This document shows, in pieces, positions 42,200 through 53,126 of a DNA stretch of 64,000 bases (position 1 is the first letter of the stretch; each line of letters opens with the position of its first letter). The notes beneath the pieces are model-generated. The model saw only the letters and a list, made by a program, of their open reading frames with translations, was not told the DNA's origin and searched no databases. The DNA lies in assembly GCF_025685625.1 (NCBI RefSeq), contig NZ_JAGSYI010000005.1, forward strand, positions 248,001 to 312,000, given 5' to 3'. The translations under genes and the position numbers were made by a program. This stretch comes from Acidicapsa acidisoli (GTDB lineage Bacteria; Acidobacteriota; Terriglobia; Terriglobales; Acidobacteriaceae).

Positions 42200-43099
42200 C
42201 TGATCACCGATAACGCGCGCGTTGAGTTCGAAAGGCTGGTGGGCGACGTCCGCCCAAAGCTCCATCGCTATTGCGCGCGCATGGCGGGCACTGCCGTGGA
42301 TGGAGAGGATATTGTCCAGGACGCGCTGATGAAGGCTCTTGTCACGTTGCCGAAGACGGGCATCCTCGACAACCCCGAAGGCTGGCTGTTCCGCATCGCC
42401 CATAACACCGCGCTCGATTTCCTGCGCCGCCGCGCCCGCAGTCCAATAATGCTGGATGACGAGGCCCTTGACATGATTGCCGCTCCGGGTTGCTCCGACC
42501 AGGACCACGAGATTACCGCGACCAGTCTGCGCACCTTCATGCAGCTTCCGACGCTCCAGCGAAGCGCGGTCATTTTGAAGGATGTGCTTGGCCACTCACT
42601 GGAAGAGGTTGCTTCGATTACTGGAGCGAGCGAGGCCGCGGCGAAATCCGCCCTGCAGCGAGGGCGCACCCGCTTGCGCGAGATTGCCAGGGAGCCCGCA
42701 GATATATCGCTTCCAATTCTGTCGGATGCGATGCGTGCCCGGCTGATTCGCTATGTAGAGGGCTTCAAGACCGGCGACTTCGACGCGGTCCGAGCGATGC
42801 TGGCAGATGACGTGAAGCTCGACCTTGTCGCGACGCTACGCAAGCAAGGAAAGCGCGAAGGCGGGGAATATTATTCTGCCTATGCAGCCGCCAAACGGTG
42901 GGCCTACGCGGCGGGCATCGTAGATGGCAGGACTGCCATGATCGTTTACGACCGCGAGGTCTCGCTCGATAGGCCTGCGTATTTTGTTGCAATAGATTTC
43001 GATGGCGATCGCGTGGTTTCAGTCCATGACTTCCTGTATGCGCGATATGCGATGGACGGCATCGACTTGTTCCTGCTCTATCCCGAGCTCCGATCCTAG
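42200..43099 (+). CDS. SigJ-like ECF sigma factor with NTF2-like C-terminal domain, probable CTG start
   Basis: About 299 aa if it starts at CTG 42200, which has GAGGAG 7 bases upstream and gives a natural N-terminus (ITDNARVEFERLVGDVRPKL). The first GTG (42239) would remove part of region 2. Region 2 (DGEDIVQDALMKALVTLPKT) and region 4 (LPTLQRSAVILKDVLGHSLE, then SEAAAKSALQRGRTRL) are present. The C-terminal 120 residues (RYVEGFKTGDFDAVRAMLAD) form a SnoaL/NTF2-like domain as in SigJ/ECF41 factors, where it controls activity in cis. No anti-sigma gene is adjacent. Confidence 0.82.
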   Translation: MITDNARVEFERLVGDVRPKLHRYCARMAGTAVDGEDIVQDALMKALVTLPKTGILDNPEGWLFRIAHNTALDFLRRRARSPIMLDDEALDMIAAPGCSDQDHEITATSLRTFMQLPTLQRSAVILKDVLGHSLEEVASITGASEAAAKSALQRGRTRLREIAREPADISLPILSDAMRARLIRYVEGFKTGDFDAVRAMLADDVKLDLVATLRKQGKREGGEYYSAYAAAKRWAYAAGIVDGRTAMIVYDREVSLDRPAYFVAIDFDGDRVVSVHDFLYARYAMDGIDLFLLYPELRS

Positions 43100-43247: not shown

Positions 43248-43609
43248 TTATCGCATTTCGGCAAACCGTTCAGTGCCGAAGTAGTTCGTATCGAAGAGGC
43301 CGCGGATTTGCTCATCGCTTGCTTCCTCTGTAACCGCGAACAGGCTCGCGCCGGCATTGTTGACAAGGATATCCAGTCGGCCGACGTGCGCGTATGCCTG
43401 ATGAACTGCCTGCTGCACCTGCGCAGAGTCGGTGACGTCGAGGGCAAGGGGCCGCACCGCGTCGCCAAAGCTTCCCGCGAGATCGGCTACGTCTGCCAGT
43501 TTGCGGGCGGTCGCTGTAACCCGATCACCGCGCTTAAGAGCAGCCTCAGCCCAGATGCGGCCGAACCCTCAAGTGCCGTGCAGACAAGTGTGTCGTCACC
43601 TGTCTTCAC
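43248..43609 (-). pseudogene. SDR fragment missing both ends
   Basis: An open piece starting at GTG 43609 reads into SDR sequence: GRIWAEAALKRGDRVTATAR, then PLALDVTDSAQVQQAVHQAY and VNNAGASLFAV, and stops at FAEMR. The N-terminal TGxxxGxG motif and the catalytic YxxxK are both lost. The GTG overlaps the stop of the truncated DJ-1-like gene, consistent with an internal deletion that joined two genes. Confidence 0.8.
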
Positions 43610-44001
43610 ACGAGCCCGCCGGCGGCGCCACATAGCAGAACCCCGGTACAGACAGAAAAGACAAGCTTTTCCTTCCGTTCATGCTCGCGGATGAGAGCAG
43701 GCACTTCTTGATCGCGCATCAGCGCTTGCTGCCTATAACCGCCGGGCACCACCAGAACATCGAAGAGCTCTGCTTCTGCTATCCTCGCGTCCGGCGAAAG
43801 TCGAAATCCCTGCACGTCACGGACCGGCGCAATCTCTTTGCCAATGATTAGGATCGATGTATCCGGCATGCGTGAGAGAACTTCAAACGGCCCTGTTAGG
43901 TCCATCTGATCCATTTGCTCGTAGATCAGGCAGCCCACAGAGAGCCGTTGTGTTGTGATCTTTGGCTTCGATCTCTCGCTTACAAACAGAGGAACGCTCA
44001 T
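43606..44001 (-). pseudogene. Truncated DJ-1/PfpI-family protein
   Basis: 131 aa of a family usually near 200-230 aa. The N-terminal Rossmann-like part (FEVLSRMPDTSILIIGK, then FDVLVVPGGYRQQAL) and the nucleophile elbow VFSVCTGVLLCG with Cys are present. The product then ends in GAAGGLV, right after the elbow, so the second half is missing. Its ATG overlaps the XRE stop (ATGA), so it was the co-regulated partner of that regulator. Confidence 0.78.
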
Positions 44002-44783
44002 AGTGCTCTCTCCTCAACACCTGTCGGGAACATGCACTCCACGCGCAGTTCCTGGGCCGTGATGCACTGTGGCGTGCCGACCGTCGTGATCAGCGAGAAA
44101 TAAGAGAAGCGCTCATCTCCTCGCCGGAAGGTGATGGGCAGTACGGGACTCTGAGGCACCAACGGGGTCTTCAGTCCTGCAGCTCCTGGGTACTGACGCA
44201 GCCGCTTCAGCAGCTCTTGGAGTTTCGCGTCCAGTACCTGACCCACTGCCTCCCGCCGGACCCGTTGTAGCAGGCCGCCCGCTACCTTCTCCCACTCCTC
44301 AACGAAAGGCCGCATCCCCGCCGGATCGAACATTAGGTCGAGAAGATTGCGCGGCTTTGGTCTTTTCTCCAGATCCACAAATGATCCGAAGAATCGCGGC
44401 GCGGCTTCATTGGTCCGAATCACATTCCAGTACCGATCGAGCACCAGCGCCGGATGCGGCTCGTGCTGTAGCAGCATCCGGTCGATGGCCCGCGTCACGA
44501 TCGCCATCTGATCGGCATCGATGGGTTGCTCGCTGAACTGAGGAGCGAATCCCGACGCGAGCAGGAGAACATTCCTTTCGCGGAGAGGAATGTTCAATGC
44601 ATCCGACACGATGGAAAGGAAATCACGGCTGGGACTGCTCCGCCCGCTCTCCACAAAGCTCAGGTGGCGCTGCGAGATGCCGGTGTCGAGCGAGAGATCG
44701 AGCTGGCTTTTGCCACGCTCCTGTCTCCAATATCGCAGCAACTCGCCGAGCTGAGGAACTGGGGATATAGATTGCGTTGCCAT
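43998..44783 (-). CDS. XRE-family regulator with MmyB-type ligand domain
   Basis: 261 aa. The N-terminal helix-turn-helix (LLRYWRQERGKSQLDLSLDT, then QRHLSFVESGRSSPSRD) is followed by an MmyB-like PAS-fold ligand domain (LLQHEPHPALVLDRYWNVI, then NLLDLMFDPAGMRPFV), which in relatives binds a fatty-acid-like ligand. Such regulators often sit beside SDR genes, as here before the deletion. The start ATG follows GGAGGAGATCGAA. Confidence 0.88.
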   Translation of the reverse strand: MATQSISPVPQLGELLRYWRQERGKSQLDLSLDTGISQRHLSFVESGRSSPSRDFLSIVSDALNIPLRERNVLLLASGFAPQFSEQPIDADQMAIVTRAIDRMLLQHEPHPALVLDRYWNVIRTNEAAPRFFGSFVDLEKRPKPRNLLDLMFDPAGMRPFVEEWEKVAGGLLQRVRREAVGQVLDAKLQELLKRLRQYPGAAGLKTPLVPQSPVLPITFRRGDERFSYFSLITTVGTPQCITAQELRVECMFPTGVEERAL

Positions 44784-44857: not shown

Positions 44858-45406
44858 TTAGCCACGCCATGCGTGCTGCCGGAAGGCATCGTCCAACGGC
44901 GGATTCGCGATGGTCCCGGTGTAGTTGGTGATCGTCGAGGCCGCCACTGTGGCGATAACCTCGAGGACCTGTTCCTTCGTGAAGCCGGCAGTGTTGAACG
45001 AATCAAGTTCCGGCTCGGTCAGGTGGCCGCGTTTTTCAATGAGCGCCTTCGCCAGTGCTGAAAGCGCCGCAAATCGCTTGTCCGTGGGTAAGCGCCGCTC
45101 ACGAATTGCGGTTGTCTCTTCAGAACTGATTCCCTGTTGGAGAGCCAAGGCGGTGTGGAACGCCACTGCATACGTGCTGGAGTTCGTGACTGCGTCTGTC
45201 AGCAGAACGATCTGATTCTCCGCCTCGGTGAGGCCTGGGCTATGCACCTGCCCAAACAGGCCAACGAGGGAGTTGATAAGTTTCGGTGAATTCGCAATAG
45301 CGCCGACGATGTTGGGTACGACACCGAAAGCCTTCCTGAGCTGTTCGAGCGCCGACTTCGAACCCGCGGGCGCAGAAGCGATCGTTTGAACTGGATAGTT
45401 CGGCAT
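44858..45406 (-). CDS. AhpD/carboxymuconolactone-decarboxylase-like protein lacking the CxxC pair
   Basis: 182 aa, all-helical AhpD-like fold with LRKAFGVVPNIVGAIANSPK and ALAKALIEKRGHLTEPELDS. In peroxidase members the active helix reads C-x-x-C-x-x-x-H; here it is SSTYAVAFH, with Ser and Ala in place of the cysteines, although His is kept. A thiol peroxidase role is thus unlikely. Its start has AAAGGAG. The upstream promoter-operator cassette (45453-45510) is nearly identical to that of the VOC gene at 51.5 kb, so the two are probably co-regulated. Confidence 0.82.
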   Translation of the reverse strand: MPNYPVQTIASAPAGSKSALEQLRKAFGVVPNIVGAIANSPKLINSLVGLFGQVHSPGLTEAENQIVLLTDAVTNSSTYAVAFHTALALQQGISSEETTAIRERRLPTDKRFAALSALAKALIEKRGHLTEPELDSFNTAGFTKEQVLEVIATVAASTITNYTGTIANPPLDDAFRQHAWRG

Positions 45407-45452
45407 GTGATTCTCCTTTGTGATCCGCAGCCTTACAGGAAATCCTGTTCGA

Positions 45453-45510
45453 CTACTTCCCTAATATCGGACGGATCAAGGATCGCAGCAATTACCTCGC
45501 AGGTAATCGT
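45453..45510 (-). promoter_or_regulatory. Promoter-operator cassette of the AhpD-like gene
   Basis: Reading the minus strand: a palindrome ATTACCTGCGAGGTAAT (45491-45507) overlaps a -35-like TTGCTG; 17 bases later is a -10-like GATATT. The gene starts about 55 bp further. A near copy occurs upstream of the VOC gene at 51404-51453 in the same relation to its gene, with the 17-bp spacer length kept even where bases differ. This is strong evidence for a real shared operator. Confidence 0.75.
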
Positions 45511-45918
45511 TTGATGCGAATCCACCCATTGAGGGCTTCGCAGAAACGTTCCTGCATTTCTCGCCTTGGCGAGAGGTGAAAGGCAAACCAGCGACTCCAT
45601 GGAGCGAACTGCATGGGATTGGCAGTGGCATCAATGAGCCCGTCTCGGCGAGCATCAATCCCAAAGCAGGGAGTCTGGAAATGCGCTAAGACCTGAATTC
45701 GTCAATCGAGATTAGGGCGGGCCAGGAGGCCAACACAAGCTGACATCACGGTCCCAATCTCGGGCCCACACCGAGACACGAGCCATTGCAGGAAGGAATC
45801 TTCTCTTACGTCTGGTTGGACAGTTGGCCGTCTCGATGCCCTGTGTCGCTCAAAATGAAGGACTCCTGAGCTTTCTCAGACGCAGCGAGCCTCCTCCGCC
45901 TAGGGCGTTGCGCGGGCT
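45511..45918. other. Non-coding stretch
   Basis: About 400 bp between the operator and the GNAT gene. I see no gene with a ribosome site or a recognisable product on either strand, and no clear repeats. Confidence 0.4.
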
Positions 45919-46440
45919 TCAGAGGGGCATCTGCATGAAGACGTTGGCGCGGGCGTAGGGATTGGGCGGGAGGGAAGCGGGCGGCACGTGGCGGAAGCCG
46001 ACGGACTCGTAGAGATGAACGGCGTCCGCGAGGCGGGTGTTGCTGCCGAGGAAGAGCGACGTGGCTCCGAGGAGGCGGGCCTGGGCGATGGCGTGGAGGA
46101 GGAGGCGACGGCCAAGGCCACGACCGCGGAGTTGCGGCGTGACGGCCATCTTCGAGAGCTCATAGACTCCCTGGTCGAGGGGAATGAGAGCGACGCAGCC
46201 GACCGGAAGACTATCTGCGTAGACCATGAAAATCGATCCGCCTTTGTGTAGGATCGTGGTTTCTGGGTCGCCGAGGGTTTCGATGTCGGGGGCTTCGAGG
46301 CTGAAGTAACGCGCGATCCATTCTTCGTTAAGGGTGCGGAAGGCGATCGCGTCGTCGCCGGGCAGCAGGGCGCGAATCTCGATTGTTGGGGCGGAGGTCG
46401 GCGAGACCGTGGATGCTGTAAGAGCGTTGCTGACGGACAT
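45919..46440 (-). CDS. GNAT-family N-acetyltransferase
   Basis: About 173 aa from ATG 46440. The acetyl-CoA loop is LRGRGLGRRLL (Q/RxxGxG/A), preceded by the strand ELSKMAVTPQ and followed by LYESVGFRHV. The substrate is unknown. Its coding DNA is rich in GAG/CGG repeats. It is followed downstream by the non-coding stretch and preceded by the frameshifted epoxide hydrolase on the same strand. Confidence 0.87.
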   Translation of the reverse strand: MSVSNALTASTVSPTSAPTIEIRALLPGDDAIAFRTLNEEWIARYFSLEAPDIETLGDPETTILHKGGSIFMVYADSLPVGCVALIPLDQGVYELSKMAVTPQLRGRGLGRRLLLHAIAQARLLGATSLFLGSNTRLADAVHLYESVGFRHVPPASLPPNPYARANVFMQMPL

Positions 46441-46524
46441 AGGAGGTTCCCTTCCTGAACTACAGTTTGCCAATCAAGGTGTTGTGACGTCCAATATCTT
46501 GTTCCTTTAGAGGCCCGTTGGCTT

Positions 46525-47707
46525 TTACTGTCGCAGTGGTCTGAAGAAGGCACGGATGTCCGCTGCCAGGAGATCCGGTCGTTCGGCAGCTGCGAAGTGC
46601 CCGCCCTTTGGCATCTCTGTCCAGCGCTGCACGTTGTAGCCACGTTCAACCCATTCTTGCGGCGGGAATACGATCTCTTTCGGAAAATGTGCTATAGCAC
46701 ATGGAACATGAACAAAATCGTCGGCGGCGAAGCGGAGCGGGGCCTTTCTGCCCGCGTGATACATAAGAAAAGAGGAAAAAATGGTCTGCGTCATCCAGTA
46801 GAGCGTGACGTTTGCGAGCAGCTCATCGCGTGTAAAGCTGCGGTAAACATTCCCTTCGCAATCGGACCATTCGCGGAATTTCTCTACAATCCACGCAGCC
46901 AAGCCAGCGGGCGAGTCGTTGAGCGCGTAGGCCGGGGTATCCGGGCGCGTTCCCTGGAGATGCGCGTATGCCCCGTTTTCGTCGAACCAGCTTGCAGCGC
47001 TCGCCAAGAAGCGCTCCTCGGTTGCAGTTAGGGTTGCACCATCTGGCAAGTGAGGCCGATAAGATCCGGGGATGTAATTGAGATGGACACCAATGATTCG
47101 GTGGCTGTAGCGCAGACCCAATGCCGTGCTCACGCCGGCTCCGAGGTCTCCACCCTGTACAGCAAACCGCTCATACCCGAGAGCGCTCATTCAATTCCGC
47201 CCAGATCTCCGCGACCCGAAAAAAGTTCATCCCGGGCTGTGCGGGCTTGTCGGAGTATCCGAAACCGGGAAGCGATGGGATGACGACGTCGAACGCATCA
47301 GCCGCATCGTGACCGTAAGCCGCGGGATCCGTCAGAAGCGGCAGAATCTTGAGCATCTCCAGAAACGATCCGGGCCAACCGTGCGTGAGAATCAACGGTA
47401 ACTGGGATGGACCTTTCCCTTTCTCATGGATGAAATGGATGTGCCCTTCCCTAGCCTGGTAACGATTGTGATTGAGAGTTGCAACACGGTCCAGTTGCGA
47501 TTTCCAGTTAAATGTATTCATCCAGTAGCCGCATAAATCCTGGAGGAACCCACGATCCACGCCCGTAGACGAGTCGGCGCCAGAAACAATCTCCGGCCAT
47601 CGTGTTTGCCTCAGGCGATGGCGCAGATCATCCACTGCGGGTTGCGAGAAGGGCGGGAGGAATGGCCTGATCATATGAAAATCGTCAATTGGCTTCGGTG
47701 CCGTCAT
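46525..47707 (-). pseudogene. Epoxide hydrolase split by a single frameshift
   Basis: The N-terminal part (47707 to about 47171) has the EHN lid-type domain and RPFLPPFSQPAVDDLRHRLR, then LILTHGWPGSFLEMLKIL. It runs into nonsense after FFRVAEIWAEL. The second frame resumes exactly with MSALGYERFAVQGGDLGAG, which holds the nucleophile Asp, and continues to the catalytic His in MPKGGHFAAAERP. One extra A near 47190 explains it. It is either a very young pseudogene or an assembly error; the rest of the sequence is intact. Confidence 0.85.
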
Positions 47708-47737
47708 CGGCTGTAAAGATGATCGTACGGGGTCTGT

Positions 47738-48271
47738 TCATGGCATGTGTGGATTTGACGAATAGGTTATTGCGGCTATCCTCCAGCCATCGGTTCCTTT
47801 AACCAACACCCAAGTCTCGCTCCCACGATTTTGTTCCTTTCCGTTTACTAGGAATACGAAGTCAAAGTATACCGACGCAATCGTCCCGTCGCTGTTCTCC
47901 TCGAGATGTGTGTGAGTCGGATTGAAGCTGGCCTTTGAGGTCGAGACCACCTTCGCGAAATCTCTGTAGCTTCCAACACGAATCTTCACCGCATCCGGCG
48001 ATTTTGCTTTAGCACGAGCATAAGCTTCATCGGAAAGCACGTTGAGCCACATACTTCCTTGAGGAATGAATAAACTGGCCAGTCGAGATCCATCGTGGGT
48101 AAGAACGGCTTCGTGGTAGGCGTCGATCACATGCTGAACGTCAACAGTGTCCGACGCGGTGCTGGCAGGGGTAGCCTCGTTGCTCTCAGCAGGTGGGGGG
48201 CTTTGAGCAAAGCTTGCAGTGGCGGTGAGAATCGTGAGAGTAAAGACGACGCTGCTGATGAAACGCTTCAT
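47738..48271 (-). CDS. Exported NTF2-like protein (DUF4440/SnoaL type)
   Basis: About 177 aa from ATG 48271 (GGAG site). Signal peptide FISSVVFTLTILTATASFAQ, a Ser/Thr/Ala-rich linker, then an NTF2 fold: VQHVIDAYHEAVLTHDGSRL, FIPQGSMWLNV, and the end GWRIAAITYSSNP. The ligand is unknown. It lies between the decayed hydrolase and the reductase on the same strand. Confidence 0.78.
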   Translation of the reverse strand: MKRFISSVVFTLTILTATASFAQSPPPAESNEATPASTASDTVDVQHVIDAYHEAVLTHDGSRLASLFIPQGSMWLNVLSDEAYARAKAKSPDAVKIRVGSYRDFAKVVSTSKASFNPTHTHLEENSDGTIASVYFDFVFLVNGKEQNRGSETWVLVKGTDGWRIAAITYSSNPHMP

Positions 48272-48328
48272 GTGATATCTCCGGGAAAGCGAAGGTATAA
48301 AGGTCATATTTGGATGTAAGAGCAGGAA

Positions 48329-48952
48329 TCACCGAAGCCGACGGACGAAGTGGAGATCGAGCCCGGATAGTGGAGCGCCGACCTCATGCATTGCACCACC
48401 TGTTGCGAGAGACCCGAGATCAATCGCGGCTAATCCGGTGCTGTTGACCAACTCGATCACTAGCTGTTTGGCTTCGGCGTCGTCGCCGGATGTAAAGATG
48501 ACGGTACGGGGCTTGTTCGGCGAGAAGTCCTGTATCCAGATCATCGGGATGTTGCTGATCGATTTCACAAGCCGTGCGCCAACTGCCATCTCGACGACTA
48601 TTTCGCTAGAGGTGCGCCCCTTCAATGCCGCTCTTGATCTGGTCACGCCAGCCAGACTGATATCTGGAGGGTCCAGATGTGCGTTCGTAGCATCGATCAG
48701 GATGCGGCCTCGCCAATCAATGCCCTTGAGAGCGTCAGCTACTCTGATCCAATGAGTGGCAAGAATGACGACGTCGCACTCGGCTGCCTGCTGCTTCGTG
48801 CCGGCGATGGCGCCTGGACCGAGATCAGCGACAAAATCAGCCAGTGTCTCCGGCCCTCTGGAATTGGATACAACGATGGTGTGACCAGCGTTGATCAAGT
48901 GACGACCGAAAGTACCCGTTACTCTACCAGCACCTATAAACCCTACTTTCAT
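48329..48952 (-). CDS. NADP-binding F420-dependent-oxidoreductase-like protein
   Basis: About 207 aa from ATG 48952 (AAGGAG, 7-base spacing). N-terminal Rossmann motif VGFIGAGRVTGTFG, then SNSRGPETLADFV and VVILATHWIRVADAL, as in the F420_oxidored/NADP-reductase family. Many family members in organisms without F420 act as NADPH-dependent ferric or quinone reductases. The partner cofactor here is not known. Confidence 0.87.
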   Translation of the reverse strand: MKVGFIGAGRVTGTFGRHLINAGHTIVVSNSRGPETLADFVADLGPGAIAGTKQQAAECDVVILATHWIRVADALKGIDWRGRILIDATNAHLDPPDISLAGVTRSRAALKGRTSSEIVVEMAVGARLVKSISNIPMIWIQDFSPNKPRTVIFTSGDDAEAKQLVIELVNSTGLAAIDLGSLATGGAMHEVGAPLSGLDLHFVRRLR

Positions 48953-49013
48953 GACGAATCTCCTTTTTCGGTTGGAATCGCGAATGAGTTCGCCTTTCAA
49001 TTGATTGCTGCGA

Positions 49014-49973
49014 TCAGCCGAGTTTCACCAGATTCAGGCGATCAACCAGAAACCGGCCGATCTGATCGAGTGCCTGCTTGGAGGCGGCCAGCGAACCGAT
49101 GCCGGAGAGAAAGCCGTGCGGCATGCCTTCCCACACGTCAACGCGAGCATCCACCCCGGCCGCAACAGCCCGTTCAACGTAACGGAGCGAGTCATCGAGC
49201 AGCACCTCATCGTCGCCGACATGGACGCGGATCGGCGGTAGCCCGGCGAGTTTGCCGTACAGCGGAGAGGCCAATGGATCAGCCGGGTCATGACCGCCCA
49301 GATAGGAGCGTACAAGCTCGGCTGCCTGCGAACGGAGGAAGTAAGGATCGGCGGAGGCGCGAGTTTCCCAGCTCGCTCCAGTCAGCGACAGATCAGTTAC
49401 GGGCGAGAGCACGACTGCTCCTACGGGCGCCACTGCGCCTGAGGGGCTGTTGGCCGAGAGATAAACAAGAAGGCCAAGGGCGAGATTGCCCCCGGCCGAG
49501 TCGCCCATGACGGCGATCTTCGAATAGCCGCGTTCGACAAGACCAAAGTACGTTGCGCGGACATCTTCTGAAGCTGCCGGAAAGGGATGCTCGGGGGCGA
49601 GCCGATAGTCCGGCACGAATGCTGCCACACCAGTGCGAGCAGCCATATGGCCAACGAGATGCCGGAAGGCCTGCGCCGAACCCCAGTTGAACCAACCGCC
49701 ATGGATGTGCAGGATGGCGTCGCCGGACTTAGGATCTTCCGGTCGGCACCACCAGCCAGAGAGGCCTCCCACGGTTCCAGCCTCGTAGGTAACGCCAGCT
49801 GGCGCGGCCACCCGCTCCATGATGGCGTCGAAGGGGACGCGAGCGGCCGTTCCTTGCAGGCGCCCTTTGTTGGGTTCAACGATGGCGCGCATGGCGGTCA
49901 TCGCAGTTTTATCTTCCGCACTGATCCGATGGGTGGTTGACCAGATGCGGTTCTCTTGAATTGTCGTGTTCAT
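49014..49973 (-). CDS. Alpha/beta hydrolase, hormone-sensitive-lipase-type esterase
   Basis: About 319 aa from ATG 49973. The oxyanion motif HIHGGWFNWGS, the nucleophile elbow GDSAGGN with Ser, the acid in VGDDEVLLDD and the His in MPHGFLS form a complete family-IV esterase set. Hydrolysis of small acyl esters is expected. It is divergent from the TetR gene at 50088, which probably represses it through the shared 114-bp intergenic region. Confidence 0.92.
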   Translation of the reverse strand: MNTTIQENRIWSTTHRISAEDKTAMTAMRAIVEPNKGRLQGTAARVPFDAIMERVAAPAGVTYEAGTVGGLSGWWCRPEDPKSGDAILHIHGGWFNWGSAQAFRHLVGHMAARTGVAAFVPDYRLAPEHPFPAASEDVRATYFGLVERGYSKIAVMGDSAGGNLALGLLVYLSANSPSGAVAPVGAVVLSPVTDLSLTGASWETRASADPYFLRSQAAELVRSYLGGHDPADPLASPLYGKLAGLPPIRVHVGDDEVLLDDSLRYVERAVAAGVDARVDVWEGMPHGFLSGIGSLAASKQALDQIGRFLVDRLNLVKLG

Positions 49974-50018
49974 GGGCATTTCCCCTGCGCGATCCGCTTT
50001 CCACAAATCGCACTTATA

Positions 50019-50033
50019 TTTACTAGACGTAAA
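50019..50033. promoter_or_regulatory. Candidate TetR operator TTTAC-TAGAC-GTAAA
   Basis: A 5-5-5 inverted repeat in the AT-rich gap between the divergent esterase and TetR genes, which is where a self-regulating TetR repressor usually binds. Binding is inference. Confidence 0.5.
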
Positions 50034-50087
50034 GAAAACAAATGAGATGCAACTTTATTTTTCTTGCCGTTCAGGTAATATAAAGGC

Positions 50088-50786
50088 GTGCCCGGATCAG
50101 CCCATAAATCTGTGCGTCTCGGCAGGCCGCGCGGCGAGGCGGCGGTGTCCCACGCAGCGATCATGGATGCCGTCTATGAGTTGCTGCAGGAGAAGCCTGC
50201 ACGCGAGCTCACGATGGAAGCGGTCGCGAAGCGCGCAAATGTAGGTAAGCCGACCTTATATAAATGGTGGCCATCCAAAGCCGCGCTCATCATGGCCATG
50301 TTCCATGAGAGGCTTGACCAACCTTTGGAGATCCCGGCCACGGTAACGGCAGAAGGGGCAATTCGCGCAAGGATGCGAAGGCTTATTAAGGTGGTTAACG
50401 GCCTCTTTGGAAAAGTGGTCGGCGACCTTATCGCGGAAGGTCAAAGCGATCCCGATATCCTGCGGGAATTCTACGAGCGGCACGTCAGTCTGCGGAGAGC
50501 GTCCGTTGTTGCGGAAATTGAGCGAGGCAAGGCAACAGGTGAGTTCTCCACTGATACGGATGCCGAGCTACTGGTCGATGCAATTTTCGCGCCTGTGTAT
50601 TACCGGCTCCTGCTTCGGTTCGCGCCTTTAACGGAGAAGTATGGCAATGACCTGATTGATCAGGTCCTGCTCGGAGTGCGGATGAAACAAAAGCTCTCTT
50701 CTCCCAAAGGTCGTCTTGGGTTGCGCAGGAAATCTCGTAGTGCTATGGCCGAAACCCCGAGTACGTCGATGCGGTCACGATTGTGA
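50088..50786 (+). CDS. TetR-family regulator
   Basis: 232 aa from GTG 50088 (AAAGG). Helix-turn-helix AIMDAVYELLQEKPARELTM, then EAVAKRANVGKPTLYKWWPS and KAALIMAMF. The C-terminal ligand domain resembles the TetR_C_16 group (VVAEIERGKATGEFSTDTDA). Its last codons overlap the end of the interrupted AraC gene on the other strand. Confidence 0.9.
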   Translation: MPGSAHKSVRLGRPRGEAAVSHAAIMDAVYELLQEKPARELTMEAVAKRANVGKPTLYKWWPSKAALIMAMFHERLDQPLEIPATVTAEGAIRARMRRLIKVVNGLFGKVVGDLIAEGQSDPDILREFYERHVSLRRASVVAEIERGKATGEFSTDTDAELLVDAIFAPVYYRLLLRFAPLTEKYGNDLIDQVLLGVRMKQKLSSPKGRLGLRRKSRSAMAETPSTSMRSRL

Positions 50787-51296
50787 GGATCGAAACTCCA
50801 GCGGGGAGACGCCAGCTTCACGACGGAATGTATTTCTGAAATGTTTGGCGTCCAGGTACCCGACGCGGATACCGATTTCCAACACACTCATGCTTGACCG
50901 CTTCAGCAGATCTTTCGCCCGCTCGATGCGGCGCATGATCACGTGTTTATGCGGACTGAAACCCACAGAGTTCTTAAACAGACGCGCAAAGTAAAAGGTG
51001 CTCATCGATGCTGTTTCAGCGAGATCAGAGAGATGAGTTTGCTGATCTAAATGAGCTTCGATGTAGTCGAAAACCTGCTTTAATCGCGCCGGGGCAATGC
51101 GCCCACCGACTCCATACAGGCCGGGCAAGCGAAACGACCGATTCAATCGCTTGGTGTCGAAGATGCCACGGAAATATGCGATCGACTCGTGGGATTCGAC
51201 AAGCCATCTTCACGGGTCGTCGGCGTCTGCGCCGTTCAGACTGATTTCGTTCCCGGCAATTGAAAGATTACGCAAGAATCCCCCCGGCGAAGACAA
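50775..51296 (-). pseudogene. AraC-family regulator interrupted by an in-frame TGA
   Basis: A 174-codon frame from TTG 51296 (GGGAG site) contains one stop, TGA at 51210-51212. Sequence homologous in style continues on both sides: GFLRNLSIAGNEISLNGADA, stop, then RWLVESHESIAYFRGIFDTK, with no shift. The C-terminal AraC DNA-binding domain (LSDLAETASMSTFYFARLF, then IGIRVGYLDAKHFRNTFRRE) is intact and could be made alone from TTG 51146. It is divergent from the VOC gene. Confidence 0.7.
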
Positions 51297-51403
51297 GTTC
51301 TCTCCCTCATTTCCCTTTAGCGGATGAATCTAGTCCTCTGTAAGTCAAAACGTCTGACCCTGCGATCGAATACGAGCCGTATCAGAGCGAGTGAATCGCG
51401 CCT

Positions 51404-51453
51404 AACGATTACCTGCGAGGTAATTGCTGCACCTTACGATCCGTCCGATATTA
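51404..51453 (+). promoter_or_regulatory. Promoter-operator cassette of the VOC gene
   Basis: The palindrome ATTACCTGCGAGGTAAT (51408-51424) overlaps the -35-like TTGCTG (51424-51429). A 17-bp spacer leads to GATATT (51447-51452), about 57 bp before the GTG start. It matches the cassette at 45453-45510, differing mainly within a 7-base stretch of the spacer. Confidence 0.75.
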
Positions 51454-51508
51454 AGCCAGTAGCCGTGCAGAATTGCTTGCCACGCTACAAGAACAGGAGA
51501 ACACGATA

Positions 51509-52048
51509 GTGGCACAAACTTTGAATGCTTCGCACACCACCTTGAACGGCGTTGAGGAATTGTTGGCCAAGGAGGCTTCCACGGAGAAGCAAGGTGTCCG
51601 ACAGGACACCGGTATCGGCCACATTGGATTACGCGCCACAAACCTGGCAGCGTCCGTGGAATTCTACAAAGACGTTTTTGGCATGGAGATCGCGGGCGGG
51701 AGCGCGCCCGACCATCCACTCGGAGCGACTGCCTTTTTGAGCAGCCGTCCCGATGTGCAATCGCACGAAATAGCCTTGTTCGCCAACCCTGTTTTCGCCC
51801 ATATCGCCTTCAAGGTCTCTTCACTTGCCAAGCTCCAATCTTTGCACGCGCGCGTTGTGGAGAAGAAGATCCCGATCAAGTTTGTCTTCAACCACCACGA
51901 GTCCTTCGCCTTCTATTTCGACGACCCTGACGGCAACATGATCGAAGTCTACTGGCCCACCGGAAATCTGAGTCGGAGACAGCCTTACGTGGAACCCCTC
52001 GATCTGTCGCAGCCGGACGAGGTGCTGCTTGAGAAGATAACGGCGTAA
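51509..52048 (+). CDS. VOC-superfamily (glyoxalase/dioxygenase-like) protein
   Basis: About 179 aa from GTG 51509 (CAGGAG with 9-base spacing). After a 35-residue N-terminal extension the VOC fold begins: GIGHIGLRATNLAASVEFYK, then FAHIAFKV and DPDGNMIEVYW. These supply the His, His and Glu metal ligands. It may be an extradiol dioxygenase or glyoxalase-like enzyme for an electrophile. It is preceded by the shared operator cassette. Confidence 0.88.
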   Translation: MAQTLNASHTTLNGVEELLAKEASTEKQGVRQDTGIGHIGLRATNLAASVEFYKDVFGMEIAGGSAPDHPLGATAFLSSRPDVQSHEIALFANPVFAHIAFKVSSLAKLQSLHARVVEKKIPIKFVFNHHESFAFYFDDPDGNMIEVYWPTGNLSRRQPYVEPLDLSQPDEVLLEKITA

Positions 52049-53036: not shown

Positions 53037-53049
53037 GTTTGAAATGCTG

Positions 53050-53126
53050 GCGGGAGCGACGGGACTCGAACCCGCGGCCTCCTGCGTGACAGGCAGGCGT
53101 TCTAATCAGCTGAACCACGCCCCCGC
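53050..53126 (-). tRNA. tRNA-Asp (GTC)
   Basis: Minus-strand cloverleaf: the acceptor GCGGGGG pairs with CTCCCGC, D-arm GTTCAGCTGATTAGAAC, anticodon loop CTGTCAC with GTC, T-arm GCGGGTTCGAGTCCCGT. No CCA is encoded (next bases CAGC). Confidence 0.92.

Follow-up and report, generated by a model that had tools for sequence, protein, structure and literature searches.

A twin operator-promoter cassette in Acidicapsa acidisoli that probably links a CMD operon and a VOC gene 6 kb away to one XRE-MLTR regulator

The stretch of Acidicapsa acidisoli DNA analysed here (the window: 64,000 nucleotides, positions 248,001 to 312,000 of contig NZ_JAGSYI010000005.1) raises the question of why two genes 6 kb apart carry the same operator-promoter cassette, and which protein acts on it. 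The cassette is present twice, in opposite directions: on the minus strand before an AhpD-like, CMD-domain gene, and on the plus strand before a gene of the VOC (glyoxalase/dioxygenase) superfamily. We propose, with a probability of roughly 0.86 and on the strength of sequence comparisons, that the XRE-MLTR protein encoded in the CMD operon would bind ATTACCT-N3-AGGTAAT as a dimer at both promoters, thus placing under its control both the CMD-XRE-(DJ-1) operon to which it belongs and, in trans, the VOC gene, which would have captured the cassette.

Both copies of the cassette are built alike. Operator A (45491-45507, minus strand) is the 17-bp palindrome ATTACCTGCGAGGTAAT, and operator B (51408-51424, plus strand) is identical to it. 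The -35 hexamer TTGCTG of the CMD-XRE operon (45486-45491, minus strand) has one base in common with operator A and is separated by 17 bp from the -10 hexamer GATATT (45463-45468, minus strand); the VOC gene has the same hexamers (51424-51429 and 51447-51452, plus strand) at the same spacing. In the alignment anchored on the palindrome, 27 bases are identical (AACG, the palindrome and TGCTGC), the next 7 have 0 identities and 16 identical bases follow (GATCCGTCCGATATTA), with equal spacing in both copies and a fainter likeness continuing to about +66. The initial annotation had described a promoter-operator cassette shared by the two genes, and both exact palindromes and the TTGCTG-17 bp-GATATT arrangement were located; its 27 near-identical bases and its differing 7-base stretch also hold, while the second outer block, given as 15 bases, is actually 16. 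The shared cassette is real and not a chance likeness. The 7.1 Mb genome contains exactly two exact ATTACCT-N3-AGGTAAT sites, both in the window, and none with one mismatch, so that the palindrome is not scattered at random and the small regulon suggested earlier agrees with two sites in the whole genome. Allowing up to two mismatches gives 12 sites (2 exact, ten with 2 mismatches) versus 5 for a reversed-pattern control. The ten were considered as extra regulon members and rejected: nine lie within mechanically called open reading frames (ORFs) of 80 aa or more and, on either strand, TGC follows none of them; they look like chance occurrences.

The operon behind operator A consists of the CMD gene, an XRE gene and a DJ-1-like gene. 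The XRE gene (43998-44783, minus strand), the proposed binder of both operators, encodes an MmyB-like protein with an HTH_3 domain (45.4 bits, cut-off 23) and an MLTR_LBD PAS-like domain (94.6 bits, cut-off 26.3); no other MLTR_LBD match was found in the genome at E ≤ 0.001. The top Foldseek match of its predicted structure (predicted local distance difference test, pLDDT, 89.4) is MltR 3pxp (E 9.5e-12, TM 0.53). Earlier candidates for the regulator were an AraC, a TetR and an XRE protein; the last is strongly supported, and nothing was found for the other two. The AraC (50775-51146) and TetR (50088-50786) genes both lie less than 6 kb from the sites, and in G180, the genome with the nearest VOC relative found (71% identical), a 320-aa ORF with an AraC helix-turn-helix (HTH) is situated upstream of the VOC homologue. 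Nevertheless, the palindrome tracks XRE-MLTR across phyla, only an HTH remnant of 123 aa is left of the AraC protein of the window, and at the G180 locus the AraC gene is present without the palindrome. Regulation by AraC or TetR is therefore extremely improbable, and the XRE-MLTR gene is very probably the regulator of both cassettes.

The association between palindrome and MLTR genes was analysed in 200 genomes of the family, the A. acidisoli genome being included in all the counts. The PF17765 cut-off was passed at 31 places, 24 of them given as loci; the palindrome (at most one mismatch) is present in 13 of these 24 loci, compared with a mean of 0.02 and a maximum of 2 for 150 half-sites of permuted letters. 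The exact palindrome occurs at 12 sites in 11 genomes (reversed control: 0 in each genome listed). An MLTR match (E ≤ 0.001) is found in 10 of these 11 genomes versus 29 of the 200 overall (hypergeometric 9e-9), and an MLTR of the Phe/Tyr type described below in 9 of 11 versus 15 of 200 (2e-10), relatedness being ignored in both values. The MLTR gene lies within 1.2 kb of nine of the 12 exact sites; the three exact sites away from MLTR are the VOC site, the G212 site and the G190 site.

The same association extends beyond the family. When the public genome collection was searched, by DNA only, for the palindrome with TGC directly after it, at least 116 loci were obtained, and a profile built from 20 acidobacterial XRE-MLTR proteins was run on the 116 loci listed: XRE-MLTR was detected in 86 at E ≤ 1e-5 and in 85 at E < 1e-15. 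In these 85 loci the gene lies within 60 bp of the site in 66 cases and within 1.5 kb in 84, the distance in the remaining one (L158) being 6.4 kb. Record titles, available for 80 of the 116, name Cyanobacteria, Alpha-, Beta- and Gammaproteobacteria, Mycobacterium, Verrucomicrobiota and Acidobacteria. Among 47 hand-picked target proteins (41 from MLTR-linked loci, 6 not), Pfam matches include DUF2834 (14), CMD (5) and Abhydrolase_1 (3); at least 18 of the 47 match nothing in Pfam. DUF2834, a small membrane protein of unknown function, is the commonest target match (L061, L070, L095 and L110 are examples); by eye, these targets are mostly divergent from XRE-MLTR, and are found in Cyanobacteria and Proteobacteria. 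The same CMD-XRE operon is present on two Burkholderiales plasmids (L186:2303-2319 and L187:2290-2306), where the palindrome takes the variant form ATTACAT-N3-ATGTAAT, and the ATTACAT form is also present in one half of the site of the same-genus genome G001 (L029:494). In three Bacteroidota loci with no XRE-MLTR gene in the stretch (L114:1671, L123:3728, L127:1456), the palindrome lies about 1 kb before a gene that, by eye, resembles a heme A synthase gene.

Protein and operator also vary together. Every motif-bearing protein paired with an ATTACCT site (up to one mismatch) has Phe, Tyr or Trp as residue X of the recognition motif SxRH-x-S-[X]-x-E; in the ATGACCT pairs this residue is Cys. 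Counted over all the 31 PF17765 places of the family genomes (the 24 loci and the remaining 7), an ATTACCT site with no more than one mismatch accompanies 14 of 15 Phe/Tyr proteins, and one with two mismatches the last of them; of the four Cys proteins, three are paired with an exact ATGACCT palindrome, and all four lack an ATTACCT site; and the 12 proteins without the motif, a group including broken or partial genes (in L036 no ORF was found), have neither. For L021 and L025, two of these three Cys loci, the site is past the stop of the XRE gene and not ahead of it. The pattern ATGACCT-N3-AGGTCAT was rejected as a general MLTR marker: only one of its six exact sites in 299 class genomes (L181) has XRE-MLTR in the locus. 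Taken by itself, the pattern thus arises mostly by chance, and four loci make up the whole Cys group. Because this group is small and the proteins are related, the one-residue protein-DNA code is a strong lead and not proof.

The operator keeps a constant register to a sigma70-like promoter. A set of 85 non-redundant MLTR-linked sites, chosen for TGC, has an A at position 41 in 76% and a T at position 45 in 76%, positions which mark a -10 hexamer 17 bp from TTGC; the values for 34 unlinked sites are 46% and 54%. In 15 sites unselected for TGC (13 MLTR loci, the VOC site and the G212 site, each read toward its presumed target, with L194 and L195 left out) TGC is present in 14, A41 in 13 and T45 in 14. 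TGC is present in both L194 and L195, and by eye the -10 fits in L194 only. The -35 is directed away from the divergent XRE gene in 70 of 90 oriented linked sites.

If the transcription start is taken as about 7 bp past the -10, the centre of the palindrome is near -43. As the site abuts the -35, keeps a fixed register to the -10 and is centred there, the geometry moderately favours ligand-dependent class II activation over repression. The alternative, in which the same regulator acts at the same sites as a ligand-relieved repressor blocking RNA polymerase at the -35 of the operon and of the VOC gene, is a serious contender that we place below even odds. Many cyanobacterial and mycobacterial sites have a third half-site between the -35 and the -10, suitably placed for blocking; it is not evident in the CMD-XRE operon of the window, where the operator overlaps the -35 by a single base and is otherwise upstream. 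TTGCTG is also a poor match to the -35 consensus, as at activated promoters, which counts against the repressor. The lambda cI protein, an XRE/HTH_3-type dimer, binds at PRM just upstream of a weak -35, and its likeness to the window cassette is one of geometry only. According to the available sections of PMC7532634, the XRE regulator MsrR acts as a repressor of its own operon and of a divergent gene; against a repressor role of the window protein, MmyB is described in the accessible parts of PMC3406030 and PMC10717218 as switching its genes on. In many cyanobacterial and mycobacterial MLTR-linked sites the third half-site reads ATTATCT or ATTACCT, at positions 25-31.

The VOC gene (51509-52048, plus strand) is the proposed captured target. 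Its start is better placed at the probable GTG codon 51509, with AGGAG upstream as the likely ribosome-binding site (51495-51499, plus strand, in a leader common to the CMD-type promoters), than at 51473. The protein matches PF00903 (51.6 bits, cut-off 20.6) and reaches the cut-off of none of the 25 NCBIfam models listed; its residues H38, H98 and E146, the His/His/Glu metal triad expected of the superfamily, are invariant in all three aligned proteins. Over the 55 promoter positions outside the palindrome, the VOC promoter is identical to the local CMD promoter at 39, to the acidobacterial CMD-type promoters L166, L026, L027, L099, L014, L058 and L029 at 39, 38, 37, 37, 36, 34 and 33, to the G212 cassette at 36, and to the verrucomicrobial-type CMD promoters L103, L093 and L141 at 24, 17 and 16. 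The VOC promoter lies within the diversity of orthologous CMD-operon promoters and, judged from these identities, is by descent an acidobacterial CMD-type promoter, including its leader and ribosome-binding site; recruitment of the VOC gene by promoter capture is therefore likely. The gene would have joined the regulon by taking over an entire CMD-operon-type unit of operator, promoter and leader. The earlier view that selection on a binding site and on phasing shaped the cassettes is supported, but their likeness owes much to this common descent. A fresh local copy as origin of the VOC promoter is not favoured, the CMD promoter of L166 being as close to it as the local one (39/55 each).

The VOC cassette could also be a relic of promoter duplication from which regulation was lost. 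The homology between the two copies reaches past the operator into the leader, several neighbouring genes have a broken look, and the regulator of the G212 cassette seems to be missing; however, the VOC cassette retains an intact operator, -35, -10 and 17-bp spacing though 16 of the 55 flanking positions differ, and the VOC reading frame and metal triad are intact as well, so that a relic is improbable. Retaining promoter capture, a broader and rather tentative proposal is that the XRE-MLTR operator-promoter-leader is a portable unit, picked up whole by unrelated genes (VOC, and perhaps GH30 in G212), with one subfamily-wide operator and a one-residue code. The G212 cassette, which is of this same type, is not part of a CMD operon and is followed by a short stub and a gene for a GH30 glycosidase. 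VOC matches were found in two of the 200 family genomes (E ≤ 1e-15, A. acidisoli being one) and in A. acidisoli only among 396 phylum genomes (E ≤ 1e-25); on plasmids, the best of the 12 matches listed is 47% identical, and all the 56 matching records are below 60%.

Several results weigh against the proposed regulation. The pairing of a VOC gene with the operator was seen in the A. acidisoli genome only, and G180, with the sole close VOC relative found, is without the site. In 31 of the 116 scan loci listed there is no XRE-MLTR (E < 1e-15) in the stretch around the site. In G190, a 67% complete genome in which no MLTR gene was found, the exact site is internal to an ORF. G212 has the cassette, but its sole MLTR match is of another type, lacking the recognition motif and containing an internal stop; its cassette consequently looks orphaned, which also reduces the odds of the portable unit. 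Finally, the sign of regulation is read from geometry, which cannot settle it.

The first gene of the operon (44858-45406, minus strand) matches PF02627 (29 bits, cut-off 23), and scores 48.1 bits with TIGR01926, under the cut-off of 81.8. The redox CxxC pair is the mark of AhpD-type alkylhydroperoxidases; it is absent from all 12 aligned CMD proteins (that of the window and 11 relatives), three relatives retaining the first Cys only. A redox reading of the CMD protein is thus unsupported, and the electrophile or quinone signal suggested by the initial annotation found no support. In the crystal of MltR, the nearest solved relative of the regulator, a fatty-acid-like molecule is bound, as reported in the available text of PMC3406030; by analogy, and with low confidence, the likeliest ligand may be a lipid-like or hydrophobic metabolite. 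The third gene (DJ-1/PfpI-like, 43606-44001, minus strand) encodes 131 aa, compared with ORFs of about 245-270 aa in three relatives, and looks truncated.

The XRE-MLTR protein shares with MltR Caur_2278 (3pxp) and the MmyB-like XRE regulators (PF17765) an N-terminal XRE HTH followed by a PAS-like MLTR_LBD. It is, however, only 22% identical to 3pxp_B in the Foldseek alignment, its HTH signature is SxRHxSFxE while the RRTPGLRREEV type is present in five of seven other PF17765 places compared, and its predicted targets are CMD and VOC genes, not antibiotic genes. In MmyB-like regulators the promoter region is often common to regulator and target gene, and MmyB and the Streptomyces B-boxes combine a protein of this family with pseudo-palindromic sites and regulation of nearby genes (both from the accessible part of PMC3406030); in contrast to MmyB, no methylenomycin-type cluster was seen around the window XRE gene. 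The palindromic motifs of 223 XRE clusters (main text of PMC12565409) likewise belong to autoregulatory XRE proteins; ATTACCT and TTACC are absent from that main text, and its supplementary motif table may list the motif. The motif of LfsT, a small XRE regulator of P. aeruginosa, differs from the window operator (available text of PMC9769523). In the literature covered, including the available parts of PMC3406030, PMC7532634, PMC10717218 and PMC9769523 and the main text of PMC12565409, no operator for this MLTR subfamily was found. MLTR proteins are widespread, and the shared operator, the likely code and the fixed register would make many regulons predictable, the VOC gene offering a clean candidate case of recruitment by promoter capture. 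If the portable unit, the code and a lock near -43 are true, new genes could gain control in one step and many MLTR regulons could be read from sequence.

Other features were observed in the neighbourhood of the cassettes. The epoxide hydrolase gene (46525-47707) looks broken, being split over two frames, and the AraC gene, with its HTH part only, looks broken too. The stretch 42239-43099 encodes a sigma-70-type factor with a C-terminal SnoaL-like match (22.1 bits, under the cut-off of 27). A tRNA-Asp gene (53048-53124) borders this group of enzyme and regulator genes immediately on the right, an arrangement reminiscent of the boundary of an acquired island. In the same-genus genome G001 (L171:6700), CMD-type promoter layouts flank the operator on both sides, and a tRNA-like gene lies to the left (by eye).

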